Below are positions 2,906 to 21,235 of a DNA stretch of 26,570 bases, piece by piece (the first letter of the stretch is position 1; each line of letters begins with the position of its first letter). The notes beneath the pieces were generated by a model. That model saw nothing but the letters and a program-made list of their open reading frames with translations. It was not told the origin of the DNA and did no database searches. The translations under genes and the position numbers were made by a program. This stretch comes from a virus. Location of the stretch: the IMG/VR virus record IMGVR_UViG_3300029319_000410, positions 1 through 26,570 of that record, one strand, 5' to 3'.

Positions 2906-5900
2906 TTAGTATATAATATTATCATTTGAATCTAATGTTGTTTGTCCTTTATTGACAATAATTTTATTTTCACCACCAGTAACTTTTACTCTATAAAATG
3001 ACGCTGTTGAGTAATCCTCATATCGTACATTCAATTGTCCTGGATTTGTGTTTTGTGTTCCTTCATTCATTCTTTCTTTAAATGGATAACTAAAATTTGA
3101 AATGTGGTTACTTGGTAATGTGATTTCACCATCGGAACTTGTTATAAAAAATTTAGTTTTTCCCATCATTCTACCAATATGATTTGAATTAGAAGTAACA
3201 CCACCAACTAAAGATTGATAAGTTATAAGTGAGTGAAAGTCATTATCAATCATTTTTCGGTTATAAAAATTTCTAAAGTTTGAAAAATCGGCACTGTTTG
3301 AAGCGGAATAATATTCGTTGTCACCAATTGAATCAAATACAAATCTTGTATCAATGTGGCCACGATTATAATTACCATCTGAACCAGTGCCACCTGTATA
3401 ATTTATAAAATGTGTTTCATTTGAACTTGTTCCCCAACTACTATGTATATTTGAAAATGATTCATTAGCCTCTTCAGAGTAAGAAATTAATCCATTTTTT
3501 GAAGTGGGTACAGATGAATCAGTTAAAGTTGGTGGAATATTTTTCTGTCCTCGTGTCTCTGAATATGTAAACGATAAATTAAATGGATTTTCAATTGATG
3601 CTGAATAACCACCAGGTTGTAAAAATGGAGGATGAAAGTGATTTTGATAACTTTTTACTGTATAATTACTACCACTATGACTTGATATTGGTGCCAAATA
3701 ACCACTACTTGTCACATACGCGTTACCAAAACTTATTGATGTTGTAATTGGTAATTCTAATGAACCACTGGCATCGACTGGTTTTAAAACTTCACCCTCT
3801 TTGATTGAGTTAAAAATAGCACTTGGAATACTTGTTGATGAAATAATATTTATTTCGTCATTTACTGTATTTGGATTTGGTTCAATTGAATGTAAATGAT
3901 GGTCATATTTTTGTTTTTCTAAAATGGTGGATTTAATCTCAACACCAAAGTTAGAGTTTTCACTAGCCATTGTTGAACGTGCGGGTGATAAACTATTTAA
4001 TCCCTCAGTTAGAGTATGATTAAACATATTTTCCTGTGCTCTTATAAATTTATTTACATCAATTGATAAAGGATGACAATCAAAAAAATCATTTTTAAAT
4101 GTATCTAATAAAGTATAAGATTGTGAAATTGTATATATTGGATTACCATACTTTTCCTCTAAGTTAAATCCACTTAGTTTATCTAAAATAAAATTATTTA
4201 CAAAGTCTTGAGGTGAACGATATAATTCTAATTTATTTGACACAGTAAGTGAAGATTTTTTACCTACAGTATTAGTTAAAGAATCTATAGCTGATTTATC
4301 AGAATTTAAATTACCAACATAATTATTTGACGGATTAATTATAATTCCATTGTCATCTTCTGCTGTCGTATTATCAGATAGAGTTAAACCAACTCTTGGA
4401 ACAATATCAAACCCGTAAATAAATGAACCTGAGAAAAAAGAACCAGGTTTACTAATTGAATAATCGGAATAATTCTTTGTAGGTGAAGCGTCAACAATGT
4501 TTAAAGTTTGTGCTGATGATGAAATAGACGCACTTGAATAATTTTCATTTAATTTAAAATGATAAATTAACTCATCACAATGTGATGTTAAACTATTACC
4601 AAGAGTTGAAAATTTGTTTAATGTATGTTGTTGAAATTTAGATTTACTTAAAGGTGTAGCCCAAGATTTAATTTGTGATAAAGAACCACTAAATATCTCA
4701 CCAACAAATAAATTTGAAGAAGATAAAGCATTTCTTGAACCACTTGACATCCAATTCTGATTAGCTATATCATTATTATCAGTAGCACCTGCTCCACTAA
4801 TTGACATTGTTGCAAAATTATAAGTTCTAATTAATTCATCCTCTTGTAAAGAAGTGTGTAATCTATATTCATTTATTATATTAGTTGATGTACTCCCCGT
4901 CATTCTTTGTAACATTACGTTCCACAATTGTCCATCCGTCATAGTGGAAAATAAAGTTGACATCGATATAGCATTAGTGGCAATCGCTAATGAACCTGTT
5001 AATGAATTATTAAGTCTAAATTGAAATGATGAACTATCACCAGTAGAACTCGGTATCAATCTTAAATCCCATAAAGTTTCCCCACCACTACCACTTGACT
5101 TTAATATTGTTTGTGTTTGTGTTGTGTTAACGTGTTTGTATACAAATTCAATTGTGTTAATGGTCGCACCATCCATCCACCAATCAAGATTTAAAATTCT
5201 ATTTTGTTTACCATTAAAAATATAATTTTGTAATTTTTGTTGACTTGAAACAAATCTAAAGCTTCCTGTTGGATTACCACTTAAACTATTATCTGCACCT
5301 TGACTTACTGGTACTCCATCGTTAAATGGATTTTCCGTTTCACCAGTGGTTTGAACACCATAACCACCAAATTCTTTCACTTTTAAAATATCTGGTGGAT
5401 AACCATATGTATTTAATAAAGCTCTTACTGAATTTTGTGTTCCTTTTGATTTATAGATGTATAATAAATTATTAAGTGTTTTTCTCCAGGTGCTATTTTT
5501 AATATCATCAAATGAAGATACAGAAGTTACATATTTTCCTAAAATATCTGTAAGACTTCCTGATAATGGATTAATAGCTTGCCAACCCATATTTGACAAC
5601 AAAATAGGTAATGTGTTATCTGGTGGAGAGTTTGTTTTTTTATATCCTCTATTATGTAATGTACCAAGTGAATCAATGTGATTTCTAATTAAATCATATT
5701 TTTCTCCTTGTAAATTTAAAAAGTTTTTCATATCTTTATATTCCGAACTTTCTTGAATATAAAGAGGTAAATTATTTTCAAATGAATGTATGTTATTAGT
5801 ATCAAAAGTCTCTGCTGTTGTTAATGCATTATTATACCAATCATTCCATTCAGTTGAACTTGTGTGAAATAAATTATCAAAAGGTAAAACATTTTTGGGA

Positions 5901-8599
5901 TTTTGTAATGTTACTTTTACATCTGTAATTTTTGTTTCTGTAATACCTGTTGGAGTTAAATACAATTGGTTAACTTCTTCAGGTGTTAAAGTTCTATTAT
6001 AAACTCTTGGGTATTGTAAGAATCCATTGAATTGTTCTTTATTACCACTAAGAGTACCTCTATGTCCAATACTTAACTTTTTATCATTATTAAAACTAGA
6101 TGCACTAAATTCACCAACACCTATGTTTGAAGTTTCATCACCTAACTTACCATCAACATAAATTTTAATACCTGTGGATGAACCACTTTGATATGTGAAA
6201 GCTACATGATGCCAACCTAATCCTGCATCGGTTACTGCTTTTTCAGCTCTAAGTGATGTTGAACCTGACCTTACACCAGCTCTGAATACATCTGAACCAC
6301 TTACATAATCTATACCATAAGAGTCAGCTTCAGTACCACGCATAAATACTTCATATCTATCTCGTGTAGGGTCTCCTGAATCACCTAATGCATTATCTGG
6401 ATGGAATCTTTTAACCCAAATCGCCATAGAGAAGTTATCATCTTTACTATAATTAAAATCAGTTGAATCAAATACAATACCTTCTTCTACAGCCGGAGCT
6501 CCGTTACTCGCACTTATGGAATAATAAGATGTTCCATATTGTCTCCCATGAACTTCAAGACCTGCCGATGCGGTAACAGAAACTATATTATCAGCATCAC
6601 CAGTTGTTGGTCCTGCGTCATTTACAACATTAGCAAGAGTTAAAGCACTACCTGATTCCACATCATCAATATTCCAATAACCTTGTAGACTTGATGATAA
6701 TTCATTTTTTCTAAATATTCTAAACAATTCACCACCTGGCATTACAGAACCAAAAAACGGAACACCACTTTGACTAACTACTGTGGTTGGATATAGATTT
6801 GTTGAATCTTTTATCTTATATGAACCTGTTTTATGACTACCACTTAAAATTGTTATTTTGGTTGAACCAGCTTCAAAATCACCAGTTTCTAAATCTACTA
6901 AATCATTATTTGTACTTTTAGGTATGAAATACGATTGTGAAGCCTCGAATATATATCTTTGATGTGCACTACCAGTCATATCAGGATTTAAAATATTATT
7001 TTGATGTAGTGCATCAGTTGGATATGCAGGGTTTAAATTTATATTATTGTTTTGCCAAACCAAAGAACTACCACTATCACCTTGCATTAGAAATGATAAA
7101 TAAATTGAACTACTGTAATTAAAAAAAGGTTTTTGTTCTACAAAATATTTATCAGTAAATAAATCTATAAATTCATTATGAGTACCTGATACTTTTTCAG
7201 ATGAGTGTTTGTACACAACATTAAATCCATTGTGTTGATTTAATTCAGTTCCTTCAACTTGTGCACCACCCAATTGTACAGGTGTTGTGTCTGCATAATT
7301 TTTTAAACTTGGTGCTGAGGCTGTTGAATCTGTTTGTCCATCAAAATATAAAAATCGTTCATAAGGGGTAAAATTTTTAAATTCTTCATTAATTTTTTCA
7401 AATAAATCTTTTCTTTTTTGTATTATAAAAGTTGAATCACCTGTGATTGAACTTGAAACATTTAATGAACTTGAAATATCAGAATAATGTGATTGAATGA
7501 TTTTTACTTTTTCATTAAAATTTTCTAATTTCTTTTTAGCTGAGCCAAAAAAAGTATGATTTTCAAATTCATTAAAATTAGTATTTATATTTGGATAATC
7601 ATATTTACTTGATGAAATTAATGAATTTATTTCAACATCACCAATTGATGCAGAAATAGCTAATTCATCTAAACTTTGAAAACCAAAGTCATTATTATCA
7701 GGATTAATAAAATTTTCTTGAGGTTGTGGTATTAAACCATCACCAAAAATTACACTTGGTACATCTGAAAAGTAAAAAATATCTTGTGTTTGTGTAATTA
7801 AAACTTCCTTTTCAATTGTAACCATTGATAAGTTACCAATAACATTTGGTATTGGTTCATACAATTTTAAAATTATTGATTGATTATCTTTTCCATCTGT
7901 AAATTTATCAAATGTATAATTCATTATTGGAATGTGTTCACCGGTTCCAATATTTAAGACATGTTTGAATTGATATTTATAATTTGGATTTGGTACTGAT
8001 TCTTCACCATCAAGTATAGATTCAGGCTCATTATTATTGAACTCATTTGTAATATTTAATATATCATTAGAATTGTTGGTTATTGGTCTATCAAGTAATT
8101 TTAACCTTACTTCTTTTCTTGATGTAGAAATCTGTTTTATAATAAATTGATAGATGGAATCTGTTGTTGAAGTATCTTCAGGTATTTCTTTTAATTGATT
8201 TAAAAAATCAATTTGAATTTTAAAATTACCTTGTGGTAATCCAAACTCATTAAATATTTCATTTGGTTTTATGTAAATACTACTATTTTCTACAACATTG
8301 CCATCTTCATCTAATGTTTGATATATTTTAAAATCATTAAAATTATCATCACCGATTATTCTTGAACTAAATACATCAGTCCCAACATTAAATGGTGAAG
8401 TGTTTACTCTAGTAGGATTTAAACTCGCATAAAAAATAGCTAATTTATTATCTTCATTTGGAAGACTAACAATGTTATTCGGACTATCTGAAGGATAAAT
8501 TGTTAAACGTATATAGTTCGTACCATTAAATTCAGACATTTGTTCCGATAAAACTAATTCCCTATCTTGAGAACTCAATTCGTATTCAAAATCAGGCAT
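2906..8599 (-). CDS. Giant LamG-containing baseplate/tail fibre protein, 1897 aa
   Basis: This is the largest gene in the window. Visible parts: an N-terminal region of short beta segments; a helical stretch near 340-375 with F-F-G-S-A-K-K-K-L-E-N-F; a LamG/concanavalin-like domain at about 640-880 (M725-A-I-W-V, W-H-H-V-A-F-T-Y, I-Y-V-D-G-K); a helical region at about 950-1075 containing L-L-Y-I-Y-K-S-K-G-T (G1053) and a following R-A-L-L-N-T-Y-G; and a second LamG-like domain at about 1135-1335. The K-G-T helix pattern resembles the P2 gpI tail-protein family, which joins fibres to the baseplate. The C-terminal third is beta- and Ser/Gly-rich. The ATG overlaps the upstream stop as TAATG, with AAGGAG before it. 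The protein likely binds surface glycans as part of the baseplate periphery. Domain calls are by eye; the virion location is inferred from context. Confidence 0.82.
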   Translation of the reverse strand: MPDFEYELSSQDRELVLSEQMSEFNGTNYIRLTIYPSDSPNNIVSLPNEDNKLAIFYASLNPTRVNTSPFNVGTDVFSSRIIGDDNFNDFKIYQTLDEDGNVVENSSIYIKPNEIFNEFGLPQGNFKIQIDFLNQLKEIPEDTSTTDSIYQFIIKQISTSRKEVRLKLLDRPITNNSNDILNITNEFNNNEPESILDGEESVPNPNYKYQFKHVLNIGTGEHIPIMNYTFDKFTDGKDNQSIILKLYEPIPNVIGNLSMVTIEKEVLITQTQDIFYFSDVPSVIFGDGLIPQPQENFINPDNNDFGFQSLDELAISASIGDVEINSLISSSKYDYPNINTNFNEFENHTFFGSAKKKLENFNEKVKIIQSHYSDISSSLNVSSSITGDSTFIIQKRKDLFEKINEEFKNFTPYERFLYFDGQTDSTASAPSLKNYADTTPVQLGGAQVEGTELNQHNGFNVVYKHSSEKVSGTHNEFIDLFTDKYFVEQKPFFNYSSSIYLSFLMQGDSGSSLVWQNNNINLNPAYPTDALHQNNILNPDMTGSAHQRYIFEASQSYFIPKSTNNDLVDLETGDFEAGSTKITILSGSHKTGSYKIKDSTNLYPTTVVSQSGVPFFGSVMPGGELFRIFRKNELSSSLQGYWNIDDVESGSALTLANVVNDAGPTTGDADNIVSVTASAGLEVHGRQYGTSYYSISASNGAPAVEEGIVFDSTDFNYSKDDNFSMAIWVKRFHPDNALGDSGDPTRDRYEVFMRGTEADSYGIDYVSGSDVFRAGVRSGSTSLRAEKAVTDAGLGWHHVAFTYQSGSSTGIKIYVDGKLGDETSNIGVGEFSASSFNNDKKLSIGHRGTLSGNKEQFNGFLQYPRVYNRTLTPEEVNQLYLTPTGITETKITDVKVTLQNPKNVLPFDNLFHTSSTEWNDWYNNALTTAETFDTNNIHSFENNLPLYIQESSEYKDMKNFLNLQGEKYDLIRNHIDSLGTLHNRGYKKTNSPPDNTLPILLSNMGWQAINPLSGSLTDILGKYVTSVSSFDDIKNSTWRKTLNNLLYIYKSKGTQNSVRALLNTYGYPPDILKVKEFGGYGVQTTGETENPFNDGVPVSQGADNSLSGNPTGSFRFVSSQQKLQNYIFNGKQNRILNLDWWMDGATINTIEFVYKHVNTTQTQTILKSSGSGGETLWDLRLIPSSTGDSSSFQFRLNNSLTGSLAIATNAISMSTLFSTMTDGQLWNVMLQRMTGSTSTNIINEYRLHTSLQEDELIRTYNFATMSISGAGATDNNDIANQNWMSSGSRNALSSSNLFVGEIFSGSLSQIKSWATPLSKSKFQQHTLNKFSTLGNSLTSHCDELIYHFKLNENYSSASISSSAQTLNIVDASPTKNYSDYSISKPGSFFSGSFIYGFDIVPRVGLTLSDNTTAEDDNGIIINPSNNYVGNLNSDKSAIDSLTNTVGKKSSLTVSNKLELYRSPQDFVNNFILDKLSGFNLEEKYGNPIYTISQSYTLLDTFKNDFFDCHPLSIDVNKFIRAQENMFNHTLTEGLNSLSPARSTMASENSNFGVEIKSTILEKQKYDHHLHSIEPNPNTVNDEINIISSTSIPSAIFNSIKEGEVLKPVDASGSLELPITTSISFGNAYVTSSGYLAPISSHSGSNYTVKSYQNHFHPPFLQPGGYSASIENPFNLSFTYSETRGQKNIPPTLTDSSVPTSKNGLISYSEEANESFSNIHSSWGTSSNETHFINYTGGTGSDGNYNRGHIDTRFVFDSIGDNEYYSASNSADFSNFRNFYNRKMIDNDFHSLITYQSLVGGVTSNSNHIGRMMGKTKFFITSSDGEITLPSNHISNFSYPFKERMNEGTQNTNPGQLNVRYEDYSTASFYRVKVTGGENKIIVNKGQTTLDSNDNIIY

Positions 8600-11500
8600 T
8601 ACAACGCTCCTTTACTATTATTAGTTTTCTTAGGAACTTTTATAAATGAGTCTCTTCTCATAGGTTGACCTTTTCCAAGTTTTTTTACTTTATAATCACC
8701 GATTAACAATCCTTTATTTGAATTTCCACTTGTGTCTAAAATAGAATTACCACTTAAATTACCAGTATTTAGTTCTAATTTACAATTTTGTTTTAAATCA
8801 TTATCCAGATTATCACTTATAAATATCTGTCCGACTGAACTTTCCAAAGGAAATTTATTTGTTTCACCATCCCAAAATGAAAAATCATTATAAAAATTTT
8901 CTATATTTGTTACAACACCTGAAGGTATATCATCTACGGTAGAAAATGCATTTACATAATTTGGATAAGTGTATTCAGTTGGAAACTCAACTTCACCAAT
9001 TAAATAAAGTATTAATGAACTTACATCTGGTCTACGAAAGAAATTATTCCATCTACTAGCATCAACAGAATCAATAATTGGTGTTGAACTACCTTGAGAT
9101 ACATTAAATTGTTCAAAGTATTCTGGAAATGGTAAAGTTGCTAAAAAATTCGGGTCAAACTCATTATCATAACCAAGTGATTGTGCTACATCAATATCAC
9201 TAAAAAAATTAATGTTTGTATCATATATAGTTTCTGATGTTCCATCTAAAGAAATATTTAATAACGTGTTAATATCATATACACCAGTGTTAAAATATCT
9301 AATTTGCTCTAAATCCATTGTTTCTATATTGACACCTAATTCATCATTTTCTAAATCATTAATTAAAAACTTTTCATCAATGATATCAAATTTTCCTATT
9401 TTACCACCACTTAAAGTATTACGTACACTTTTTTTATATTTTGAATTTTCAGAAACTCCGCCAATCATAACCGTTGTAAAAGGCCATGGTATTGTTGTGT
9501 AATCAGCTCCACCCACATCGGAAAAATCAGGATATTCACTTGGTGGAATATCTAAATAAAATCTTGACGTACAAAGTTTCCATCTACCAATTTCAAATTC
9601 AGGTGAGACTAATTGTTGAAAATCATTAAGAAACTCATAAGGTAAAGCTTCAAAAGAGCTAAACATAATGAATTTAACATTTTTAATTCCTGGTGTTGTA
9701 TATACATTACTCAGACCCTTACCATATTCATATTCCGGTATATTAATAAAACTGGAAGGTAATCTATATTCTTGATTTCCAGCTTTTGGTATTTGGTTTT
9801 CTGGATTTAAATCAGATGTATCAACAGAAAAATAAATTTGTAATTGTTGTTCAACAGTAAAACCACCGTCATCAAAAGGACCACCGCCGGTAAAAAGATT
9901 TAGTTGAGCTTGTGTGACAGGTCCGTCTACCTCCATAGGTAAGTTAAATTCATTTTCTTCTAAATAATCAGCGATATCATTTCTTCCAGATGCTCTCCAT
10001 TCATAAATGTCTTGGTCATCAATTTTACCAAAAAATTTAATGTTATAATAAAAAGTATTTCCAAATTGCATACCTGTATCATATTCCACTATATTTCTAT
10101 CACTATCAATATTAAATTCCTCTATAAATTCTGGAAACTCAGAATAAAATTCTAAAGTATTTTCAACCTGTATTTCGTTAGGAGAAAATTCTTCAAACAT
10201 TCTTATTTTTTTTAATTTGTAAAGATTTTGATTTATTTTTTCTAAATATTCAAAATCATTTTCTGGTTTTGAATTTAACCAATCATCAATAGTTAAAAAT
10301 TTTTCATCTTCATCATTCCAATCAATTACAAAATAATAAAAATATTGCGTACCAGAATCCAATAAAGGTGTTTGTGAGTATTTTTGTAATTCAGAACCAT
10401 CAAAATTTACACCCTTAACTTCAAACGTAACATTTAAAGGTGATGATGCTTTTAAAATTGAATCAAAATCATAATTATAACTTTGTAAATCAATATAATT
10501 TTCAGCAAGTCTATCATTTTGACTAAATCCAAATGTTGTTAATGGAAAAAAATCAGGATGTCTACTTAGTGCATTTGTTCCAAACTCTAAATTTCCGACA
10601 TCCATAGTATCATCACCACCAGATAGCTGATTATTATCAAGTTGTGCTTTTGGGTTTACTAATGATAACCACTCAACACTATTAAATGAATTTGCATTTA
10701 ATGAAACTCTTGGTAAAACTTGTTTTACAGCGTCTTCATAATCACCTACGTCAGAGAACAAATTTTCTACACCAGCTTGTGAGTTAATTTGTAAACTTAA
10801 CGAAGTAACCCTCCATGCAGCTTTACGAGCTCCACCACCACCCTCACCAGTTCTAGTAGCAGTTGCAGATGTAAAATTGTTTTGATAAGTTAAACCAAAA
10901 AAATTATTTCCAGATTTTTGAAACAATTCCTCATTACTTATTTTAAAAATATCATATCTTCGTCTTCTTTCGTCTGTTTTTACTGGCCAAGCTACTTTTT
11001 TATGTCCTCTCATCCAAACAATAATAAAAATCGGATTGTATTGTGATTCATTGAATAAACTTGTTTGTAAACCAGATGTTTCTAAATTACTAAGTTTAAA
11101 AGCATCTAATTCACCATCTGAATTAAAATCTAAGGTTTGACCTTCAAAATCACCTAATTGAACTTGGGGTGAGTCCGCACCAAAATTACTTACTATTTCA
11201 CTGCCCTCAACATTATCAATATTTCCAATATCAGTACCTTCACCTCTAGTACCAAAGCCTTGTGAGTAAAATTTCCACTCATCATGTTCGTTTAATTTAT
11301 TTTTTATAGTTGTATAACCATCTCTTGTTGGGTCACCACCATAAGCTTCTTGTGAAAATATCCATGCAGCTACGTGATTATTTTTTACCGTCCCATCAAC
11401 ACCTGTATTTGAAATATATAAATTTTCTATTTTAATAAATGATTCTGCTTCGTATTTTAGATTTCTTTCAATAATCTTTTCATTAATATCATCCCCAACA

Positions 11501-11658
11501 CTTCGTGTAAAAAGGTCTTTTTTTTGAAATTTATCATTATTTTTAGGTAAACCAGTTGAATCAACATACAATTGATTAGTGTCATTTTCATCAAAATTAT
11601 ATTGACTTCTATCTCCTATGTTTGGTCTATTGACTAATATTTTTTTTATTTCAGCCAT
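8599..11658 (-). CDS. Large baseplate-associated protein, 1019 aa, paralogue of the 1500-aa neighbour
   Basis: No named family is recognised. The C-terminal third is related to that of the upstream 1500-aa protein. Shared blocks in the same order are I-G-G-V-S-E-x-S-x-Y-K-K, a short I-x-Y-F-N-T strand, L-P-F-P (842-845), R-P-D (876-878), Y-T-Y-P-x-Y (P899), D-I-P-S-G, and a basic tail with S-G-N-x-N-x-G-x-x-I-G-D-x-K (about 977-989) ending G-A-L. An N-terminal segment A-A-W-I-F-S-Q-E-A-Y (near 97-106) may also match A-T-W-L-I-T-N-E-A-Y of the paralogue. A calcium-type loop D177-F-N-S-D-G-E-L-D is present; the loop found between L-P-F-P and R-P-D in the paralogue is lost. The start is TAATG-coupled to the upstream stop, with GGAG. 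Its length is close to that of T4 gp7 (1032 aa) and a wedge role is possible, but no gp7 similarity is evident. Confidence 0.8.
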   Translation of the reverse strand: MAEIKKILVNRPNIGDRSQYNFDENDTNQLYVDSTGLPKNNDKFQKKDLFTRSVGDDINEKIIERNLKYEAESFIKIENLYISNTGVDGTVKNNHVAAWIFSQEAYGGDPTRDGYTTIKNKLNEHDEWKFYSQGFGTRGEGTDIGNIDNVEGSEIVSNFGADSPQVQLGDFEGQTLDFNSDGELDAFKLSNLETSGLQTSLFNESQYNPIFIIVWMRGHKKVAWPVKTDERRRRYDIFKISNEELFQKSGNNFFGLTYQNNFTSATATRTGEGGGGARKAAWRVTSLSLQINSQAGVENLFSDVGDYEDAVKQVLPRVSLNANSFNSVEWLSLVNPKAQLDNNQLSGGDDTMDVGNLEFGTNALSRHPDFFPLTTFGFSQNDRLAENYIDLQSYNYDFDSILKASSPLNVTFEVKGVNFDGSELQKYSQTPLLDSGTQYFYYFVIDWNDEDEKFLTIDDWLNSKPENDFEYLEKINQNLYKLKKIRMFEEFSPNEIQVENTLEFYSEFPEFIEEFNIDSDRNIVEYDTGMQFGNTFYYNIKFFGKIDDQDIYEWRASGRNDIADYLEENEFNLPMEVDGPVTQAQLNLFTGGGPFDDGGFTVEQQLQIYFSVDTSDLNPENQIPKAGNQEYRLPSSFINIPEYEYGKGLSNVYTTPGIKNVKFIMFSSFEALPYEFLNDFQQLVSPEFEIGRWKLCTSRFYLDIPPSEYPDFSDVGGADYTTIPWPFTTVMIGGVSENSKYKKSVRNTLSGGKIGKFDIIDEKFLINDLENDELGVNIETMDLEQIRYFNTGVYDINTLLNISLDGTSETIYDTNINFFSDIDVAQSLGYDNEFDPNFLATLPFPEYFEQFNVSQGSSTPIIDSVDASRWNNFFRRPDVSSLILYLIGEVEFPTEYTYPNYVNAFSTVDDIPSGVVTNIENFYNDFSFWDGETNKFPLESSVGQIFISDNLDNDLKQNCKLELNTGNLSGNSILDTSGNSNKGLLIGDYKVKKLGKGQPMRRDSFIKVPKKTNNSKGAL

Positions 11659-14600
11659 TAAAACGCTCCATTTACTCTTGAAGTTTTAAAAATATTTTTT
11701 ATTTTACTTTTTTGTACTCGAAGTGTTTGTTTTTCAAATTTTGATTTGAAATCTCCTATTGATATACCATAATTTTTATTTCCACTATTGTCATCAAAAA
11801 CCTCAACATCAATTTTTTGATTTATAATATTGAATAATAAATTTTCATTTTGTTCCATTTCATTTGTTATGTCACCTTGTAATGGGAATGGTATTTTAAA
11901 AACATTATTGATTCTTGGATAACCACTTACAATATCTCCATCTGTATTAGTCTTGATTTCTACAAATCTGCCATCAGCACCATGTTTTGGTAATACAGGA
12001 TAGTAATAATCATTAACTGTAACATATGCAGTTTCTTCATCTTTTAAAAAGTTTTGTTCCGAAAAAGTATCTATATTAGGGGGAGTGGTATAATCAGTCC
12101 AAAGAAGACGGAAGTTTTCAGAAGGTTGTTCCAAGCCATTACCAGTTGGTATATCACTTAAACTACTCCACTCCAAAGCATAGTCTGGATAAGTATAATT
12201 TTCTGTATCTAGTTGATTCCCATTACCTAAATCATTAATAAGTTTTCTTATGTCAGGTCTTCCCCAGTTATCCCACATATCTTTATCAAAGGCAGTGTAA
12301 TTACCATCACCATTTAAATCAAATTCTTCTTTAAATTTAGGAAATGGTAAACCTGATTGAATTAATTGAAAGGGTAATCCCTCTCTTCTAAATATAGAAT
12401 AATCATTTGGAATAATATTTTTCCAATATCTTTTATTATCAGGATTACCAATTTGTTCTAAATCATCATTTTCAAATCCAAACATTTCCCAAATTGATTT
12501 TGGTGTATTATAATATTTTATACTTGTCAAATCACAATCACCAATTCCTTTTCCTAATTCTTCTCTAATCGGTGATATACCTTTATATATTAATGCTAAA
12601 GGAGGTAGTAAATCCCAAACCATAGAATCAACATTTAATTGAAATGTATATTCTTTTCCTGTTTCAAGTCCATCGTCTAATAAGTTACCACCCCAATCTT
12701 GATTTTGATTTAAAGCTGCAGCAACACCATCACTTCTATCAATCCTTATAATTTCATCAGGCATGGTTTCTGAACTTATTGCTAAATCAGGACCTGGCCA
12801 AGTTTTGGTTTCATTATTACCAAGATTGTATTCCGTTAAATATCGTGGTATCATGTAAGATGGTAATACTTCTAAATTAGCTTGATTTTGATTTTCCATT
12901 TTTAAAAGGGCTAATTCTGTTTTTAATTTGTCACTTTTATTTTTATATTCAATACTTATTTTTTCATTATCTAAAAATCCTAGTTGTCTTTTTATTGTTT
13001 TATAATATGAACTTTGTTCTGATATACCACCTATGATTGGAGTAGTGTTTTTAAAAGGTAAAAAAGAATAACCATCACTTCCAAAATATAAAAAGTCCTC
13101 ATCTAATCCTTCATTTATATTTATTCTAAGTTTAAATTTTTGATTATGTACGACACCTAAAATGTTGCCTTCTTCATCAGTTTTTATTCGTAATGCTGTT
13201 CCCGTAATTTCAAAAATACCATGATTTTCATACGTATGATAAAGTGCTGTATTTTCATCAATTTTTTCAGGTGTTGAGGTAAATTCATTTGCAGAACCAT
13301 CACCCCAATTAATATCATATATATAAAACCTACCTAATCTAAAATCTTGATAAATTGGTGTTCTTTCTATGTTAAAAAATTCATTAGTTGGATATTGTGG
13401 ATAAAAATAAAATTGTACCTCCAAAGGTGCAGTTGAATCTTTGTATTCATTTGGTTGTAATTCTTTATCATAATATTTTGTTAAATCAGCTATACCATAA
13501 TTACCAACAGATATTTTTTTTCTAACATCACAATCTAATTTGAATTTATGAGATTCAAAACACTCAATGTTATCAATCAATACTCTACCTTGAAAATTGT
13601 TTCCAGCTTGTAAAAATAAAAACATATTACCAAGCCCATCAGTAGGGAATTGTGACGCATTACTAACGTATTGGTCAATACCATTAATACCATCTTCAGT
13701 TGAAATAGGACTACGATACAATCTACCAATAATGAAACAATGTGTATTTATTGGTGCAAAGGTTCTGAATCTATCATAACCGGCATTATTATCATAAGTC
13801 CACCTCTCGCCATTCCAATACGCTACAACCACATCTGGATATGTATAATCTACGTCTGAGTTAGTACTCATCGGTAATAGAAAATGAGTATCTGTATGTG
13901 AACTATAATTGTTACAACCAACATACATTAAATAAGCCTCAAGAACCGTTCCATCATTTTGAACACCAGTGGATGTATTTACACCACTTCCTGCTTCATC
14001 ACCCAATTTACTCGCTACACTCATATAATCATCTGTTCCAAAATCACCATGTTTTACAGTCACTCGCTTCTGAATTTCAACATAACCATCTGAAGTTAGT
14101 AGAGTGGTAGTTTGGTGTGGTGAAATCAAAGTAAAGTTTATTTGTGCTGTGTCTTTATCTTGATATCCTGGCACTTTAAAATAAATTTCTCCGGCATTTT
14201 CCTTTGGTACACCTGCGTCTTCTGTATCTTGACCACCACCTTTAGCAATATGATTTAACATAATTTCAACAGGCCCATTATTATCTGCATCATCAAATCG
14301 ACCTCCATACGGAACACCATAAATTAAACCTCTATTGTTGTGGTCATTTTTTAGATTAAAGTCAAATTCAAATGTTTCCCATTGATTGATTTTTTTATTT
14401 TGAAATCTTGTCATACCTCCTAAATCAGCTTGTTTTTTTTGTTCAAAATTTGCACCATTAAAATATCTTGTTGAATTAAAACTACCCGGTGCTCTAAATT
14501 TACAATCCTCCCCTAAATTAGATGGTATTGAAAATGTTCCTGCTTTTGGTGTTTCTTCAAATTGAGTTGATAAAATACCAACTTCAACTGTTGGTGCAAA

Positions 14601-16160
14601 TCCTAAGTTTTCATCTAATGGGTTTGAAAAATTAAAATCGGAATTAGAATTATCTGGTGGGAAAACAGATGTTGTTTTCATTTTAAATCTTATTTTTAAA
14701 GAACTGTAAGGATTTATTGGTGTATCATTAAATTTATCATAAATTTTTTGAACTTGATTTAATACTCTGTATTGATTATCCGTTATTACATCATTAGCAC
14801 TATAAGAATCATCAATGATTTCACCATCATTTTGAAATTGTGATTTAATTAAGTAATTGAATGGCCATTTTCTAAAACCATCCACATCAACATTTCTTAG
14901 AAAATCAAAAACTTTTGTATTGTTCCATATATAATAATTTTGAAAACATAAACATCTTTGATTTGAATAAGCTTCATTTGTTATCAACCAAGTAGCTATA
15001 GTTGGAACCGCGTTACCTCCTTGTGAATCTTCATATCTTAATCTAAATTGGTCTCTTAAAGTTGGTATATTATCATAGTTTTCTATGTCTATTTGATTTA
15101 CTCCTTGAAAGTATTCTTTAAAACCAGAAAAACTACCACTGGTTTGAAAATCAACACCTGACCAATAATCCATACCAGCTGAACCACTTTGTTCCAATGA
15201 CATTGGCACGTATGAATATCTTCCTCCGTAACCTTGAAATCCTTGAAAGTCAGGAAAGTCATAAAATTGTAATAAATCATCATCAGTAATATCACGTAAA
15301 GATAAAAATCTCCATTCTCCCTCTGGTTTGACAACTATGGGAATATCATTACCTTCGTCATTAACTTCCTCTATGTAACTTCTTTCTATGAATTTACAAT
15401 CCCCATTTTTTACTAAATTTTCTTTTGTTATAGGTAAAAATGGAGAAGATAAAATACTTGGAAAATTATCTGCTGCTAGGTTCTCTTCATCAAAAGTAAA
15501 CATACCTAATTCAATCCTACCATCTTGATTTGAATCTTGTAAACCTTGATTTGTATTTAGAAAAGAAGACGTTTGAACATTTAAACCACTAAATGAGTCA
15601 AAAGGTTTTATAATTGTTTGTTCAATTGTTACACCATCTACACCAAATCCTGGTGAAACTGATTCCGAAACAAATCCGTCATCTAATGTGTATTCAATCA
15701 CATCATAAGGAACTACTGTGTCTCCTGCTGGAATATCTTCAGTTTCTTCAAATTCAATACTGTCAAGAGAATTATGAATTTGTACAAAACTATCAACACT
15801 ATGATTTGTTACAGGTGACCCACCAAAACCTCTTTCTACTTTTATTCTCATTAGTGGCAAATAAGTAAAAATATTAGTACTAAATCCTGTCTGGTCATCA
15901 TGGACCAATATTCTCATCACTTCACTATTTATTTTTAAATAGTAGTCTACAAAAGTTCCATTTGTTTCAAATTGCTGTTGTGCCAGATTTACATTAGTTT
16001 CTGTTGTGAATAAAGTAGTATCTAGAAAAGTTTGTGGAACAGTCTCTGGTAAATACGTGTCCCTAAAAGAACTATAATCATTTTGCCATGAACCTAAAAG
16101 GAATGTATCCATGGTATTATTTAAATTCCGTGTTAATTGCGTTGTTCCAATAAAAGCCAT
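11658..16160 (-). CDS. Giant baseplate-associated protein, 1500 aa, with PKD-like and EF-loop motifs
   Basis: The N-terminal region has V-E-R-G-F-G-G followed by H120, like the E-R-G-x-x-G-T...H strand-turn common in phage fibre and baseplate proteins. A calcium-type loop D209-S-N-Q-D-G-R-I-E follows. The middle looks like a set of beta-sandwich domains. A PKD-like domain lies at about 905-1005, with W952-G-D-G-S and, 25 residues on, Y-E-N-H-G. The C-terminal third, shared with the 1019-aa protein, includes L-P-F-P (1271-1274), a canonical 12-residue EF-hand/dockerin-type loop D1281-L-N-G-D-G-N-Y-T-A-F-D1292, R-P-D (1301-1303), Y-T-Y-P-D-Y and D-I-P-T-G, ending G-A-F. The gene begins 40 nt after the 551-aa gene with an AGAGATAG ribosome site. 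It probably builds the wedge periphery or fibres; this is inferred from position after gp6 and the domains. Confidence 0.8.
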   Translation of the reverse strand: MAFIGTTQLTRNLNNTMDTFLLGSWQNDYSSFRDTYLPETVPQTFLDTTLFTTETNVNLAQQQFETNGTFVDYYLKINSEVMRILVHDDQTGFSTNIFTYLPLMRIKVERGFGGSPVTNHSVDSFVQIHNSLDSIEFEETEDIPAGDTVVPYDVIEYTLDDGFVSESVSPGFGVDGVTIEQTIIKPFDSFSGLNVQTSSFLNTNQGLQDSNQDGRIELGMFTFDEENLAADNFPSILSSPFLPITKENLVKNGDCKFIERSYIEEVNDEGNDIPIVVKPEGEWRFLSLRDITDDDLLQFYDFPDFQGFQGYGGRYSYVPMSLEQSGSAGMDYWSGVDFQTSGSFSGFKEYFQGVNQIDIENYDNIPTLRDQFRLRYEDSQGGNAVPTIATWLITNEAYSNQRCLCFQNYYIWNNTKVFDFLRNVDVDGFRKWPFNYLIKSQFQNDGEIIDDSYSANDVITDNQYRVLNQVQKIYDKFNDTPINPYSSLKIRFKMKTTSVFPPDNSNSDFNFSNPLDENLGFAPTVEVGILSTQFEETPKAGTFSIPSNLGEDCKFRAPGSFNSTRYFNGANFEQKKQADLGGMTRFQNKKINQWETFEFDFNLKNDHNNRGLIYGVPYGGRFDDADNNGPVEIMLNHIAKGGGQDTEDAGVPKENAGEIYFKVPGYQDKDTAQINFTLISPHQTTTLLTSDGYVEIQKRVTVKHGDFGTDDYMSVASKLGDEAGSGVNTSTGVQNDGTVLEAYLMYVGCNNYSSHTDTHFLLPMSTNSDVDYTYPDVVVAYWNGERWTYDNNAGYDRFRTFAPINTHCFIIGRLYRSPISTEDGINGIDQYVSNASQFPTDGLGNMFLFLQAGNNFQGRVLIDNIECFESHKFKLDCDVRKKISVGNYGIADLTKYYDKELQPNEYKDSTAPLEVQFYFYPQYPTNEFFNIERTPIYQDFRLGRFYIYDINWGDGSANEFTSTPEKIDENTALYHTYENHGIFEITGTALRIKTDEEGNILGVVHNQKFKLRININEGLDEDFLYFGSDGYSFLPFKNTTPIIGGISEQSSYYKTIKRQLGFLDNEKISIEYKNKSDKLKTELALLKMENQNQANLEVLPSYMIPRYLTEYNLGNNETKTWPGPDLAISSETMPDEIIRIDRSDGVAAALNQNQDWGGNLLDDGLETGKEYTFQLNVDSMVWDLLPPLALIYKGISPIREELGKGIGDCDLTSIKYYNTPKSIWEMFGFENDDLEQIGNPDNKRYWKNIIPNDYSIFRREGLPFQLIQSGLPFPKFKEEFDLNGDGNYTAFDKDMWDNWGRPDIRKLINDLGNGNQLDTENYTYPDYALEWSSLSDIPTGNGLEQPSENFRLLWTDYTTPPNIDTFSEQNFLKDEETAYVTVNDYYYPVLPKHGADGRFVEIKTNTDGDIVSGYPRINNVFKIPFPLQGDITNEMEQNENLLFNIINQKIDVEVFDDNSGNKNYGISIGDFKSKFEKQTLRVQKSKIKNIFKTSRVNGAF

Positions 16161-16200: not shown

Positions 16201-17856
16201 CTAAACTCTAAAACCACGAGCTCGTAGTAAGTCTGATTTAGATATTATTTCAACTTTACATCTATTTCCTAAACCTGAAAACGATGTGTAGGATTCACCA
16301 TCAGCTTGAACATGATTCAACCAATAATCTGGATTCGTATTATTAAAATCAGAATTTTCTTCATCAACATTTGGATTATAAGTTGCACATATGAAATACC
16401 ATTCATTAAAATCTTCAGGTATATTGGTATAGTTTAAAAGTTGAAATTCATCATTTGAAAAATAATTTCCATTATCATCTTTATTTAAATCTGGTGGGTT
16501 GTTTTTTATTTTTTCTATATCACCCATACCTAGTGCAGAATCTCTTAATCCTGTATCATTAGCAGTCGAGAACTCTCCATCCTCTCTAACTTGTAATCTA
16601 ACAAATCTTTCTGTATTTGTGTTTTGAAATAATCCTAAAGTGTTTTGATGATAACCACCTTCAATATAATTTCCAAAAGTTTCTATATTACCATTACCAT
16701 CATTATAAGTATCATCTTTATTTAATACAAAAGTTTCTAATCTGAATCCAAATGGATTTTCATCTCGTGTTGGATTTCCAAAATTGAACAATGTTCCGTT
16801 TGAAACTTTGTCTAAAAATCTTACCCACATTGTAATGGTAAAACCTGTTTGTAAATAAGTTGGATTGTTTGGGTCTAATCCTTCGATAAAATCTTGATTT
16901 GTATTACGGACAATGATTCCTTGATTTGGATTTCTGAATTGTAAATACCCACTTGATTGATTTTGATATATTGGTCTCTCATCCTCTAAACCAATGTCAT
17001 CCTCCAATATATCAGTTAAATAAGGTAAAATAGTATTATAAATATCTTCAATGGTTTTTGTAGAATTTGTATCGTTGGTTGTTGATTTTAATCTATGAAT
17101 AAACGAATCCTCTTCATCAATGTTTCCATCAGTATTTTCTTGTGCATAAACAATACTATTATTTTTACTATAATCAAGCGAACCAGTCCAAGTCCCATCT
17201 TGAGCTCTATCAACTCTACCATCAGTATCTAAATCAAATTCAGGTAAATTAGGTGGTAACAATGCTCCTAATTCTTGAAAAAATCTTGTAATTCTTGCTT
17301 GTCTAGTGTCACCAGTTGGTAGTAATTCAAATATATTTGTATCTAAATATTCTTCAGCTTTTTCAACATCTATACTAGCTTGTTGTTTTGATATTGAAAT
17401 GAATTGACTTACATTAGAAAAAAATCCATCTTGTACAAGAAATTCTGTGATGTCAAGTGGTGATGGTAAACCACCACCTGATATTTCAATTGATATTGTA
17501 TCATTAGCACCTGGATTAATTGATACTATTAAAGTGTTAAAATCTATTATTCCATTAGCATATTGTTGTAAAACAATTTCTGCATCACCATCATAAGCAT
17601 TTAAATCATCTGCATTAGCTTTAATGTCTTTTTGGAATAATGCTAAAACACCACTTCCTTGGCCTGATTGTAATTGTCCATTACGAATAAATTTTTGATT
17701 ATCTTCAACTATTGTTGTATTGACAAGTGGACTTTGAATTAATGCCTCGGCTACTCTATCCAATAAGCCCTCTAATTTATTAAGAGGTTGACCCTCAACA
17801 GTTTGTTCAAATTCAGGTGGTTGAAAATTTTCATTTTCTTCTGGTGTATAAGCCAT
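16201..17856 (-). CDS. LamG-domain baseplate/fibre protein, 551 aa
   Basis: The C-terminal half (about 290-520) reads as a LamG/concanavalin-like beta sandwich: F-T-I-T-M343-W-V-R-F, N-P-T-R-D, and W-Y-F-I-C-A-T-Y-N near the end. M-W-V and the P-T-R-D loop are 19 residues apart, the same spacing as in the first LamG domain of the 1897-aa protein, so the two are probably related copies. A calcium-type loop D208-L-D-T-D-G-R-V-D sits before it. A second acidic stretch near D456 (D-L-N-K-D-D-N-G-N) is less regular. The N-terminal 190 residues are partly helical and unrecognised. The gene starts 2 nt after the 373-aa stop, with AAGGAA upstream. LamG folds often bind glycans, so receptor binding is plausible but not shown. 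Confidence 0.8.
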   Translation of the reverse strand: MAYTPEENENFQPPEFEQTVEGQPLNKLEGLLDRVAEALIQSPLVNTTIVEDNQKFIRNGQLQSGQGSGVLALFQKDIKANADDLNAYDGDAEIVLQQYANGIIDFNTLIVSINPGANDTISIEISGGGLPSPLDITEFLVQDGFFSNVSQFISISKQQASIDVEKAEEYLDTNIFELLPTGDTRQARITRFFQELGALLPPNLPEFDLDTDGRVDRAQDGTWTGSLDYSKNNSIVYAQENTDGNIDEEDSFIHRLKSTTNDTNSTKTIEDIYNTILPYLTDILEDDIGLEDERPIYQNQSSGYLQFRNPNQGIIVRNTNQDFIEGLDPNNPTYLQTGFTITMWVRFLDKVSNGTLFNFGNPTRDENPFGFRLETFVLNKDDTYNDGNGNIETFGNYIEGGYHQNTLGLFQNTNTERFVRLQVREDGEFSTANDTGLRDSALGMGDIEKIKNNPPDLNKDDNGNYFSNDEFQLLNYTNIPEDFNEWYFICATYNPNVDEENSDFNNTNPDYWLNHVQADGESYTSFSGLGNRCKVEIISKSDLLRARGFRV

Positions 17857-17858
17857 AA

Positions 17859-18980
17859 CTAATTCCTTTTAACTATAAATTCAAAATTATCATCAAATAT
17901 CTGTTCTTGTCCATCATCATATTTTAATTTAAGTAATATTTTATAAACTCTATCTGGATAGAATCCATCTAAATATTGAATAAAATAATTTGAGTTTGAA
18001 TCACAACTAAGTTTTGTATACACTACATCTTGATTGTCTTCAAATGGGACAATGAACTCATCAGTAGCAACATCTTTGATTGCATAAGAACCACTACCTT
18101 CAGTTATAAATGAACCCGTAACGGTTTGTACTGAATTAGTAAAAGTTTTTTGAATATATCTTTTTCTCGCACCAACTCTAAACTTAACCCGTTCACCAAC
18201 CTTATAACTTTCTTTTAAACCTTTCATATATAAAAAGTTATCAGCTAAACCACTCATTGTCAATTCATTTAAAGAACCAGTGTTTGAACCTGTACAAGGT
18301 AAATGGTCATCCCAACGAACCTCTAATTGTGGTGAAAAAATTGTATGTGTGTTTCTCGAGAAGAATTTTAAATGTCCAAATGTTTCACTATCTGTTTCTT
18401 GACTACCACTAAATCTAACTAACATACCATAGTTTTCTTCTTGTCCTTGTAACCACATATTCACCATATTGGTTACTTCTACATTAACATCAGGTGATTG
18501 ATTTGAAAAAGTTTGTGTGGATGAACTAACACTTAACACTGTTACACCAGGTGTGGCCCAAGGTACTGCAGTTCCTCCAATTGGATTACTACGATTATCA
18601 AAACTACATCCATTTGTATTTTTTGGGTCATCACCAAATTTACCTGTACCTTCAACCCAAGATTGTGAAATCGGTTGTATAGCTAATTTATATTCTTCAG
18701 TCATTTCAGCATTACCTTCGGCTTCAAATAACCTTAAATAATATTTTGCGTTAGATGATATAGTGCCATCTGATACTGATTTTGATAACTCAGTAAACTC
18801 CGTTCCACTAAAATTTACTAACGCTCTTGTCTGATGGTCAAATGAATTATTAAAAAATTCTTTTTTAACTTCAAGTATTTGGTCTCGTCCAAAATTTTGG
18901 TCTTTAAAAGATTCACCTGTAATTAAATTTGAACCACTTGAAATCCAAGTGTCTTGTGATGGAAAAATAAAATGATGCAT
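17859..18980 (-). CDS. DNRLRE-like structural protein, 373 aa
   Basis: Residues about 5-225 follow the plan of DNRLRE (carbohydrate-binding-module-like) domains: an opening strand D10-T-W-I-S-S-G, N-F-G-R-D-Q-I-L-E-V, then T-R-A-L-V-N-F, a central Q-S-W-V-E-G-T-G, W176 followed by Y-G-M-L-V-R-F, and a closing F-F-S-R-N...S-P-Q-L-E-V-R-W. The remaining ~145 residues are beta-rich with no recognised match. There is no signal peptide or membrane segment, so the domain is used on the virion and not as a secreted cell protein. The ATG overlaps the gp6 stop as TAATG, with AGGGAGAG before it, so translation is probably coupled to gp6. It is likely a baseplate or fibre-attachment component. The domain call is by pattern and moderately sure. 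Confidence 0.78.
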   Translation of the reverse strand: MHHFIFPSQDTWISSGSNLITGESFKDQNFGRDQILEVKKEFFNNSFDHQTRALVNFSGTEFTELSKSVSDGTISSNAKYYLRLFEAEGNAEMTEEYKLAIQPISQSWVEGTGKFGDDPKNTNGCSFDNRSNPIGGTAVPWATPGVTVLSVSSSTQTFSNQSPDVNVEVTNMVNMWLQGQEENYGMLVRFSGSQETDSETFGHLKFFSRNTHTIFSPQLEVRWDDHLPCTGSNTGSLNELTMSGLADNFLYMKGLKESYKVGERVKFRVGARKRYIQKTFTNSVQTVTGSFITEGSGSYAIKDVATDEFIVPFEDNQDVVYTKLSCDSNSNYFIQYLDGFYPDRVYKILLKLKYDDGQEQIFDDNFEFIVKRN

Positions 18981-21235
18981 TATCTAACTCTCCCTTGTAT
19001 GTTTGTATTTGGATTCTTTAATTCAAAAACTGTTGGTGTGGATGTATTTGGTGGTAAAATAATTGTACCATCAGTTGAGAGTGCAGTTTGGAAATTATAC
19101 TTGTAACCATAACCAGATGTTCCCTCTTCATTTTCACCTGTGACATCTCTAAATGCACCATCAACTATTCCATCACCATCTATATCAATTGTTGCCTCAG
19201 TATTTGAAAATGAATAACTGTAAGTGGCGTTTGCTAAATCAGCATCACTTATTTCACTATTATAATCATCTTTTTGTGTAATTGTGACATGTCCAATGGA
19301 ACGAACACCTTCAACACCCATTAATTCAAATTCTAAATCACTTTTATAAATAGGTTGATTGAATTGCATTTTTTCAATTCTAAAATAATCTTTTATTTTT
19401 TGAATACAATCTAATTTTACTTTTTGTTTATCTGCATATTTTTCAGCTATTACGTCAAATATCACCCCAAAGTTTACAATGTATCCATCTTGAATTGTAA
19501 CCACATCCGTCATTAATTTAAAATTTTCTAAATATTTTTTTATGTTAGTTTTTAATAAATCTGGTACATAATCTGTACTATTGAGTGAAATTCTATTTGG
19601 ATTACCAATTAATTGTTTTTTATTATTGTAACCAAGAATATATATGTCTATTGAACCTAATTCAAAATTTTGTACAGAAGCGACAAATTCAGTTAAACTT
19701 CCAATATCTTGAGATTGAGAATCTAATTCTATTAAAGCTTTAGCAATTTCATTTTCTGCTCCTGATACATCATTATCGTTTAAAAGACCGACAGCATTAT
19801 TTAAATAAGTAATAGAATTAAAGTTATCATCTGCAATTCGACCATTTATGACAGGCAATTGTGTAATATCAGGTTGGTCAGATATTGTAGATGGTCTAGC
19901 TACATAAGTTTTTGCAATGTTTCCAAACTTAGCTGGTATGTTTAATACTCTCGCTTCATAATCTTCTTTCGTCACACATCTATTTTGTGTCGTGAAAAAA
20001 GCTCTCGCTTTTTGTTTTATCTCCTCAGTATCCTCTTCATCTTTACCACCACGAGCACCAATGTTGTTATTAACCGATGCGAGTGTAGCTCCACCATTTA
20101 TTGATGGTACAATTGTACTTGGTAAAGTTGTTAAATCACCACTAACTACGTTTGAATTTATACCCCCACCAACACGATAAGTAATTGTTAATGTTGTGTT
20201 GTTTGGTGTTTCACCCAATGTTGAATACTCGTCACCTAACAATGGATTGATAGCATCGTTTAAATTATTAGCTTGTCCTGGTATTACAACACCAACTTGT
20301 TCCAAATCAATAAATCCTTCATCAATCACTTCACCATTTTTTAAAACACCATTACCAAATATTAATGAAGTTGTATTATCTAAATTTGTTTCTCTTGTAA
20401 ATCTTTTTGTTGAAGTAATATAGGTTAGAGAATAAGGTACAGCTTCAACTGAAACATTACCTTGAAAGTCTATATAAGCTGAACTTCTATTTACATCATC
20501 TGTATAATGTGTTTCAATTGGAACTTTATCTTGAGCTAAAAAATCTACTTCATACCAATTATCTCCATTTGAATCTACACAAGAAATAATATCAACTACA
20601 TTTGTATCAGGTAATGTAATGGTTTTAAACTTTTCAGGTTGTCCTATTTGAAATGTAATTGTTTTTTGTGTAGCACTTACTGCCTTTACAGTTCTTGATA
20701 ATTTATATTTTGAAGCTAAACCACTATCATCTGTTACAGCAATAGTATTCGTATCATTTGAACCAGTAATTCTAAAATCAATTGGTTCTAAAGTTGAAAA
20801 AATTATATTTGAATCTGTTGAAGATACTATTTCTATTCCTTCATCAAATACACTCGCATTTGTGTAATCCACTTTTGTAACATTACCACTATCAGAATTT
20901 ACGTCAGATGTAAAAGTTAAATCAACAAAAGCTGGAACAATTGGTTTTACTTTGTAACCAAACATCTTAGCCATTGTGATAATGTTTCTTCTCTCCTCAG
21001 CTAATGGTAATAACATCTCACGATATTGTTGGTCGATATAAAATGATAAAACATCACCAACATAGGCGTTCATTTCTAATAACATCATACCAGGTGATGT
21101 TTCATTGAAATCACGATATGTATTTGGAAAATATGATTTTGCATAATTCATTAAAGATTCTTTTAATGATGCAAAATCTTTATTTAAATAATTTACGTTT
21201 GATTCTTTAAAATTTTGTTTACCATATGTTGGCAT
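18980..21235 (-). CDS. gp6: Baseplate wedge subunit gp6 (baseplate J-like)
   Basis: This is the T4 gp6-type wedge protein, which forms the ring of dimers that holds the inner baseplate together and couples hub movement to sheath contraction. The N-terminus is characteristic: N-Y-L-N-K-D-F (15-21), P-G-M-M-L-L-E-M-N-A-Y-V-G-D-V-L-S-F-Y (48-66) and E-E-R-R-N-I. The baseplate J-type signature G-A-R-G-G-K-D-E-E-D lies at about 393-402, followed by T-Q-N-R-C-V-T-K-E-D-Y-E-A-R. At 751 aa it is longer than T4 gp6 (660 aa). The C-terminal extra region carries a calcium-type loop D684-I-D-G-D-G-I-V-D692. A GGAGAT ribosome site supports the start. It lies 13 nt after gp25, the order seen in T4-like phages, and its stop overlaps the next start. 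Confidence 0.93.
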   Translation of the reverse strand: MPTYGKQNFKESNVNYLNKDFASLKESLMNYAKSYFPNTYRDFNETSPGMMLLEMNAYVGDVLSFYIDQQYREMLLPLAEERRNIITMAKMFGYKVKPIVPAFVDLTFTSDVNSDSGNVTKVDYTNASVFDEGIEIVSSTDSNIIFSTLEPIDFRITGSNDTNTIAVTDDSGLASKYKLSRTVKAVSATQKTITFQIGQPEKFKTITLPDTNVVDIISCVDSNGDNWYEVDFLAQDKVPIETHYTDDVNRSSAYIDFQGNVSVEAVPYSLTYITSTKRFTRETNLDNTTSLIFGNGVLKNGEVIDEGFIDLEQVGVVIPGQANNLNDAINPLLGDEYSTLGETPNNTTLTITYRVGGGINSNVVSGDLTTLPSTIVPSINGGATLASVNNNIGARGGKDEEDTEEIKQKARAFFTTQNRCVTKEDYEARVLNIPAKFGNIAKTYVARPSTISDQPDITQLPVINGRIADDNFNSITYLNNAVGLLNDNDVSGAENEIAKALIELDSQSQDIGSLTEFVASVQNFELGSIDIYILGYNNKKQLIGNPNRISLNSTDYVPDLLKTNIKKYLENFKLMTDVVTIQDGYIVNFGVIFDVIAEKYADKQKVKLDCIQKIKDYFRIEKMQFNQPIYKSDLEFELMGVEGVRSIGHVTITQKDDYNSEISDADLANATYSYSFSNTEATIDIDGDGIVDGAFRDVTGENEEGTSGYGYKYNFQTALSTDGTIILPPNTSTPTVFELKNPNTNIQGRVR

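Follow-up and report, generated by a model that had tools for sequence, protein, structure and literature searches.

An EF-loop cassette and its slots in two anciently paralogous giant proteins of a phage baseplate gene cluster

The locus and its genes

The IMG/VR virus record IMGVR_UViG_3300029319_000410 is a fragment of an uncultured phage, and its 26,570 bases, referred to here as the window, encode a pair of giant neighbouring proteins of 1500 and 1019 amino acids (aa). The origin of these two proteins, the window's members of families A and B, and the behaviour of a small module built around a single EF-type loop, here called the cassette, which occurs in them and in the adjacent family C, are the subject of this text. 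The large genes of the window all lie on the minus strand, in the order gp25-like, gp6-like, 373-aa, 551-aa, A, B and C, followed by genes for 232-, 375- and 294-aa proteins, and the 373-aa protein contains a CBM96-like domain. The genes on which the argument leans are the following.

21249..21740, minus strand: gp25-like baseplate wedge protein (PHROG 261, E 8.2e-18)
18980..21235, minus strand: gp6-like baseplate wedge protein (PHROG 219, E 7.4e-24)
16201..17856, minus strand: 551-aa protein, whose relative in locus L094 has a cassette inside an insert of ~250 aa
11658..16160, minus strand: 1500-aa protein, family A, paralogue of the 1019-aa protein (open reading frame (ORF); 55 non-redundant family sequences)
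8599..11658, minus strand: 1019-aa protein, family B, paralogue of the 1500-aa protein (ORF; 43 non-redundant family sequences)
2906..8599, minus strand: 1897-aa protein, family C, with a LamG domain (Pfam Laminin_G_3, E 1.2e-15)

Homologues of gp6 and gp25 lie side by side in conserved order, as in T4-like contractile-tail baseplate clusters, and the gp6-like wedge gene anchors the operon as a cluster of this kind. Related IMG/VR contigs have the same gene order as the window, with A and B adjacent in 69 of 83 loci and A, B and C consecutive in 57, the remainder being mostly contig ends; this constant order makes a heteromeric assembly of A and B, as proposed in a first-pass annotation, plausible. 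Neither A nor B has a match above cut-off in PHROGs or Pfam, and tblastn against cultured phages yields no match for either giant. Flavobacterium phage immuto (Immutovirus) and Microcystis phage Mel-JY01, the nearest isolates found, share with the window the order gp25, gp6, 373-like, C-like, 232-like and 375-like, but have no A gene, no B gene and no cassette, so that A and B were apparently gained by the window's clade or lost by the others. For the 1897-aa family, a gpI-like domain (Tail_P2_I) scores no better than E 0.12 and is not claimed.

A and B derive from an ancient duplication

The relationship between the two giants is detectable by direct BLASTP of the 1500-aa against the 1019-aa protein (E 1e-8) and by hhalign with four A and four B sequences (probability 97, E 1.2e-10). 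Stripping every cassette column beforehand, so that a common insert could not drive the match, leaves a stronger one when 51 A sequences are compared with the B family (probability 99.1, E 6.4e-19, 301 columns, 26% identity). This framework-only alignment runs from ADLTKYYD in A and DLQSYY in B to the final residue, GAF or GAL, and supports a paralogy extending over about 400 residues. Family C matches neither A nor B in the same test, and a cassette-masked hidden Markov model (HMM) recovers 32 B and 38 A sequences and none in C. The homologous parts are located as follows.

11661..13490, minus strand: C-terminal framework of A (aa 891-1500), homologous to B (framework-only hhalign)
8602..10494, minus strand: C-terminal framework of B (aa 389-1019), homologous to A (framework-only hhalign)
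13116..13328, minus strand: PKD-like motif of A (aa 945-1015, FYIYDINWGDG...HTYENHG...FKLRINI), recognised by sequence pattern and aligned by hhalign with B 441-667; as Pfam gives no hit, PKD is a putative label

The first-pass annotation had recognised the pair as paralogues from a series of short ordered blocks, all of which are present, in order, in both C-termini, and the similarity proves significant well beyond them. The blocks do not all belong to one framework: IGG[IV]SExS, IxY[YF]NT, SGNxNxG and GA[FL] do, while LPFP, RPD, YTYPxY and DIP[TS]G belong to an insert.

In a tree of the common region of 94 sequences, one branch with 100% support, much longer than any branch inside either family, separates 53 A rows from 41 B rows. 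Because the split is complete, the duplication is ancient, older than every sampled relative and not specific to this phage, which answers the question of age that the first reading had left to phylogeny; a recent tandem duplication within the window's lineage is contradicted by the same branch.

A cassette with a single EF loop

LPFP, RPD, YTYPxY and DIP[TS]G are parts of one mobile single-EF-loop cassette, with a core of ~47 residues and a length of ~85 aa when its tail is included. An iterated cassette HMM of 47 columns, searched against 454 non-redundant ORFs of related loci at a threshold of E<1e-4, finds 79 copies, distributed over A (36), B (28) and C (15), the best score among shuffled ORFs being E 0.16. 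Single further copies occur in a 551-like protein (L094) and a 375-like protein (L138), and on ten whole contigs every cassette lies in a large ORF of the A, B or C size range. The 551-aa family, in the window (16201-17856) and in relatives with similar loops, also has an EF-like stretch of its own, FDLDTDGRVDRAQDG, in a context unrelated to the mobile cassette.

Three copies are found in the window by the cassette HMM, one in the 1500-aa and two in the 1019-aa protein.

12111..12356, minus strand: EF-hand cassette of the 1500-aa protein (aa 1269-1350, core 1269-1310, slot A863; cassette HMM E 2.9e-16)
12285..12320, minus strand: canonical 12-residue EF loop DLNGDGNYTAFD of the 1500-aa protein (aa 1281-1292; ligand pattern)
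8893..9150, minus strand: C-terminal cassette of the 1019-aa protein (aa 837-922, core 837-887, slot B600), with a degenerate loop (cassette HMM E 4.4e-16)
9955..10137, minus strand: second cassette in the 1019-aa protein (slot B451, within the PKD-like domain; aa 508-568), with loop NIDSDRNIVEYD at 10078-10113 (cassette HMM E 3.3e-8)

The perfect calcium loop reported earlier in the 1500-aa protein is thereby confirmed. What had been described at the corresponding place of the 1019-aa protein as an unrelated Ser/Thr-rich stretch (aa 852-866) is part of another copy of this domain, which has lost its ligands through substitution and an insertion of three to four residues and retains the flanks LPFPEYFEQF and VDASRW...RRPDV. 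Nor has this protein lost its EF-type loop, as had been proposed, since its second, overlooked cassette keeps ligand positions 1, 3, 5 and 12 in NIDSDRNIVEYD.

Across 40 aligned cassettes, each with one loop, LPFP, loop residue D12, a W and RPDI are near-invariant. All four ligand positions are kept in 33 of 73 loops, including both DLNGDGNYTAFD and NIDSDRNIVEYD, and the other 40 are degenerate or carry indels, at most slots and in all three families; loop decay has thus recurred. Similarity to known EF-type domains is weak: Pfam EF-hand_1 matches 17 of the 40 cassettes (best E 1.6e-4) and Dockerin_1 matches 12 (best E 0.0056), while the matches of a PDB profile search, which include EF-hand proteins (2jnx, E 2.6e-4) and dockerins (2y3n, E 0.0037), are confined to the loop. 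An AlphaFold2 model of the cassette, built from the 40-sequence alignment (predicted local distance difference test score (pLDDT) 91, predicted template modelling score 0.81), has a short turn at 9-12, the loop at 13-24, an exit helix at 22-30 and a second helix at 34-44, the loop being unpaired; in the full-length model of B the C-terminal cassette stands out as helical and confidently predicted (pLDDT mostly 76-89) from a tail that is otherwise modelled poorly. Foldseek returns no significant match for the 1019-aa model, and none for the cassette among viral models, where the top entry, 'Dockerin type 1' at E 6.7, is meaningless. The cassette has no match above cut-off in PHROGs or Pfam, and none was confirmed in 84,980 bacterial and archaeal species by two pattern-based scans, which are sensitive to the conserved head motif only; two pattern matches in cellular genomes proved not to be cassettes. 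Literature searches found no description of the EF-loop module.

Discrete slots with changing occupancy

Framework alignments place the cassettes in discrete slots: a single one in C, which holds all 15 copies and lies after GNYKIQIDFLNQ (C134); two main ones in B, at 451, inside the PKD-like domain before YTTPGIK, and at 600, after YDMNTLLNI; and several in A, in the N-terminal region and at 739, 780-788, 831 and 863. An empty slot is a linker of 6-30 aa, and a filled one measures 82-115 aa for one cassette and more where several modules are present. Occupancy changes repeatedly, with parsimony on the framework trees requiring at least 37 presence changes (A739 2, A780 4, A831 3, A863 4, B451 3, B600 13 and C134 8), as counted on a fast tree and with gain and loss indistinguishable.

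Near relatives differ from the window at the very slots that it fills. A863 is empty in L013, L011, L019 and L006, and in the first two of these loci, the nearest to the window's A framework, REGIDLD[AN]...IDTYSQQE stands in place of the window's cassette. B600 is empty in L002, L006, L009, L012, L013 and L017, and 38 of 41 relatives have no cassette at B451. Conversely, C134 is empty in the window (slot region 8129-8221) and filled in 14 of 37 relatives. The LPFP...RPD block is missing or elsewhere in L002, L003 and L004, and in close relatives such as L002 and L006 both A and B are without a cassette, so its presence in both proteins of the window was not simply inherited from one duplicated gene.

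The window's two C-terminal cassettes probably sit in different slots, that of A at A863, after the YWKNI segment, and that of B at B600. The latter falls before the YW that is aligned with RYWKNI of A and would correspond better to A831 than to A863, in a gapped region of the alignment.

Exchange of the cassette between slots and proteins

The cassette has also been exchanged between slots and between proteins. For 48 of 73 cassettes the best match lies in the same slot and for 25 in a different one, and slot labels on the cassette tree require 27 changes, where 9 would be the fewest possible and shuffling gives 44.6 on average, a result that indicates some vertical inheritance and much exchange. 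Cross-slot pairs are 62-90% identical, compared with 25-30% for their frameworks. The N-terminal cassette of A in L044 and the C-terminal one of A in L047 are 89.9% identical in DNA over 207 nucleotides, in A frameworks that share 30% of residues; the cassettes of L014 A863 and L010 B451 share 62% over 93 aa across the paralogous proteins; and that of L030 A780 shares 72% over 65 aa with the copy that L138 carries in its 375-like protein, in an extension at the N-terminus. The same domain is thus found at non-equivalent positions of different proteins and is absent in close relatives, as expected of a mobile accessory domain. A conserved-DNA recombination hook in the cassette head is not supported: codon identity is 0.78 against 0.66 expected, but vertically inherited framework blocks have the same excess (0.75 against 0.60-0.64).

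Other modules in the same slots

Slot A863, which holds the EF cassette in the window, contains a CBM60-like module in L002, L007, L008, L009, L010 and L046; the L010 copy is above the Pfam cut-off (E 1.6e-10). CBM60 modules are calcium-dependent and bind xylan. A CBM_4_9-like slot-mate in relatives stays below cut-off (E 3.3e-4). The window itself holds a further module of this shuffled kind.

12600..12800, minus strand: module of ~67 aa, WPGPDL...WDLLPP, slot A787 of the 1500-aa protein (aa 1121-1187); the same module occurs in relatives' slots

Its fuller signature, WPGPDL...RSDG...LETGKxYTF...WDLLPP, has no Pfam match and is shuffled among A787, A863 and A898, with further occurrences in L018, L043, L033, L040 and L138; in the 375-like protein of L138 a WPGPDL-like stretch precedes the cassette. 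The modules that share slots and move between them further include cysteine repeats (CTDPTACNYN type) and a Hint-type sequence. The latter, a Hint/intein-type start ECFVAGTKVKMSNGLEKNIEDIQIGEKVLSYN (Hom_end_hint E 5e-8), is found near the N-terminus of A in L044, L053, L056 and L059 and in B of L025, that is, in two different slots, and suggests a possible self-processing of a baseplate protein. In L002, L011, L012, L013 and L036, slot A831 holds a 55-aa block with NRRTGELVPAGTLYHIHPDGGPMEGG...GGTEGHDYFD that has no Pfam match, and repeats of the GCTDPTADNYNSNANVDDGSC type lie inside the N-terminal regions of family A in L004, L024, L028, L029 and L049. Through modules stacked in its slots, family A reaches 2243-3207 aa in L048, L051, L045 and L044, which places these proteins among the largest baseplate-cluster proteins in this sample.

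Interpretation and alternatives

The explanation that we favour, with a probability of about 0.72, combines an old A/B duplication with slots that hold a mobile, often decayed EF-loop module having a displayed contact role. A and B would be structural proteins of a contractile-tailed phage, encoded between the wedge genes and the LamG protein C. Their common C-terminal framework and PKD-like region offer fixed slots for accessory modules, and the EF mini-domain, consisting of an entering turn, a 12-residue loop and two helices, has moved repeatedly among the slots of A, B, C and other neighbours, many of its copies having Ca ligands that are partly decayed. The spread presumably took place through recombination among co-infecting relatives, and the insertions may be displayed on loops outside the baseplate or on short fibres. 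There it could act as a compact, Ca2+-stabilised contact module, either binding glycans or surfaces or serving as a spacer that positions neighbouring binding modules, and it would be interchangeable with the CBM60-like and CBM_4_9-like modules that use the same slots in relatives; copies with degenerate loops would keep the fold with their Ca2+ dependence lost or weakened. The slot-sharing with carbohydrate-binding modules and the position in the genome make an accessory surface-contact module, exchanged with such modules, the likely role of the cassette. A further-reaching proposal is more tentative, with odds somewhat short of even: a clade-specific EF-loop plug-in that moves among the slots of at least five neighbouring virion proteins, competes there with CBM60-like, CBM_4_9-like and other modules, and gives a combinatorial, partly calcium-gated host-contact surface.

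Several observations weigh against this interpretation. Over half of the loops are degenerate, and Ca2+ binding may therefore not be a conserved property; Foldseek finds no fold match for the cassette in the PDB, and the putative surface contact is put forward from slot-sharing and genome position. The full-length AlphaFold2 model of B has a mean pLDDT of only 64, and its confidence is low except at aa ~50-480, in the PKD-like part and in the C-terminal cassette. As regards mobility, the count of presence changes mixes gain with loss, the resolution of the cassette tree is poor (5 of its 70 inner branches are starred) and its partial clustering by slot means that part of the inheritance is vertical. 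At the N-terminal slot of A and at A780, moreover, framework columns fall inside the cassette, so that not every copy is demonstrably a clean insertion.

Four other explanations were weighed. The original proposal, in which tandem duplication of a gene for a calcium-loop protein was followed by loss of the loop from one copy, so that the two products form a heteromer and play separate roles in it, is right about the paralogy, and one C-terminal loop is indeed intact and the other degenerate, in cassettes that both have the long form including YTYPxY...DIP. The scenario, however, is disfavoured by a duplication that predates all relatives, by relatives of both proteins that have no cassette at these slots, by slots that are probably not equivalent, by the ligands kept in the second 1019-aa cassette and by the spread of loop degeneracy over most slots and all three families, and this sequence of events is very improbable. 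Scarcely better is the idea that the cassette is ancestral to all slots and that the pattern reflects repeated loss of a vertically inherited domain. The preponderance of same-slot best matches, and the clustering of slot labels beyond that of shuffles, would agree with it, but cross-slot pairs are far more alike than their frameworks, the nearest cultured relatives have neither A, B nor cassette, and entirely different modules fill the same slots in relatives.

The remaining two concern what the cassette does. It might be a half-dockerin whose cohesin-like partner is borne by the virion or the host cell, a docking role to which the weak Dockerin_1 and 2y3n similarities point, as does the resemblance of its short entering turn, with the loop leading straight into the exit helix, to a dockerin F-hand. 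We consider this unlikely, as half of the loops are degenerate, the A, B, C, 551-aa and 373-aa proteins have no cohesin-like Pfam match (E<=1), six longer relative contigs have no Dockerin_1 match and each cassette has one loop where dockerins have two; exact membership of dockerin type I, with its two tandem F-hand repeats of ~22 residues, is excluded by the single loop in the 40-sequence alignment. A pure spacer, with no binding role, that only lengthens or rigidifies loops and is tolerated wherever it landed would account for the frequent degenerate loops, the tolerance of long loop insertions and the many slots in several proteins. The conserved W, GRPDI and LPFP, and the use of the slots by carbohydrate-binding modules otherwise, nevertheless suggest selection beyond length, and such a spacer appears rather unlikely.

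With an exchanged contact module as the preferred reading, the giant-protein pair becomes a testable slot-and-module system, in which it can be asked what module, in what slot, determines host range or surface binding, and whether calcium plays a part. The signature LPFPxYxEEF...W..GRPDI offers a means of detecting domain transfers between the structural genes of phages and of dating them. The case also calls for caution, in that a motif missing in one paralogue need not mean functional specialisation.

Comparison with known systems

With the EF-hand superfamily the cassette shares a 12-residue loop with D/N at positions 1, 3 and 5, D/E at 12, G at 6 and a hydrophobic residue at 8; it differs in its single unpaired loop, its short entering helix and its own motifs, LPFP and GRPDI. 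Like dockerin type I, it has an EF-like loop followed directly by an exit helix and would be an extracellular accessory module linked with carbohydrate-binding modules, but it has one loop instead of two, no cohesin is seen and its similarity stays below the Pfam cut-off.

Ig-like domains are beta-sandwiches, are widespread and are often added via programmed frameshift. The cassette, by contrast, is a helical single-EF-loop module found in discrete internal slots of adjacent baseplate-cluster genes and, so far, in one phage clade. The promiscuous Ig-like domains of phages (Fraser et al. 2006, cited in PMC10684548) resemble the cassette in being small independent domains, added to the ends or the interior of several unrelated virion proteins and patchy among close relatives. 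Domain-level mosaicism of tail and baseplate proteins has been surveyed by Smug et al. (2023, PMC10684548), who describe an ongoing shuffling of fragments concentrated in receptor-binding and baseplate proteins, and the main text of that survey makes no mention of an EF-hand or dockerin module. Set beside this mosaicism, the present locus offers one module traced via defined slots across paralogues and non-paralogues alike.

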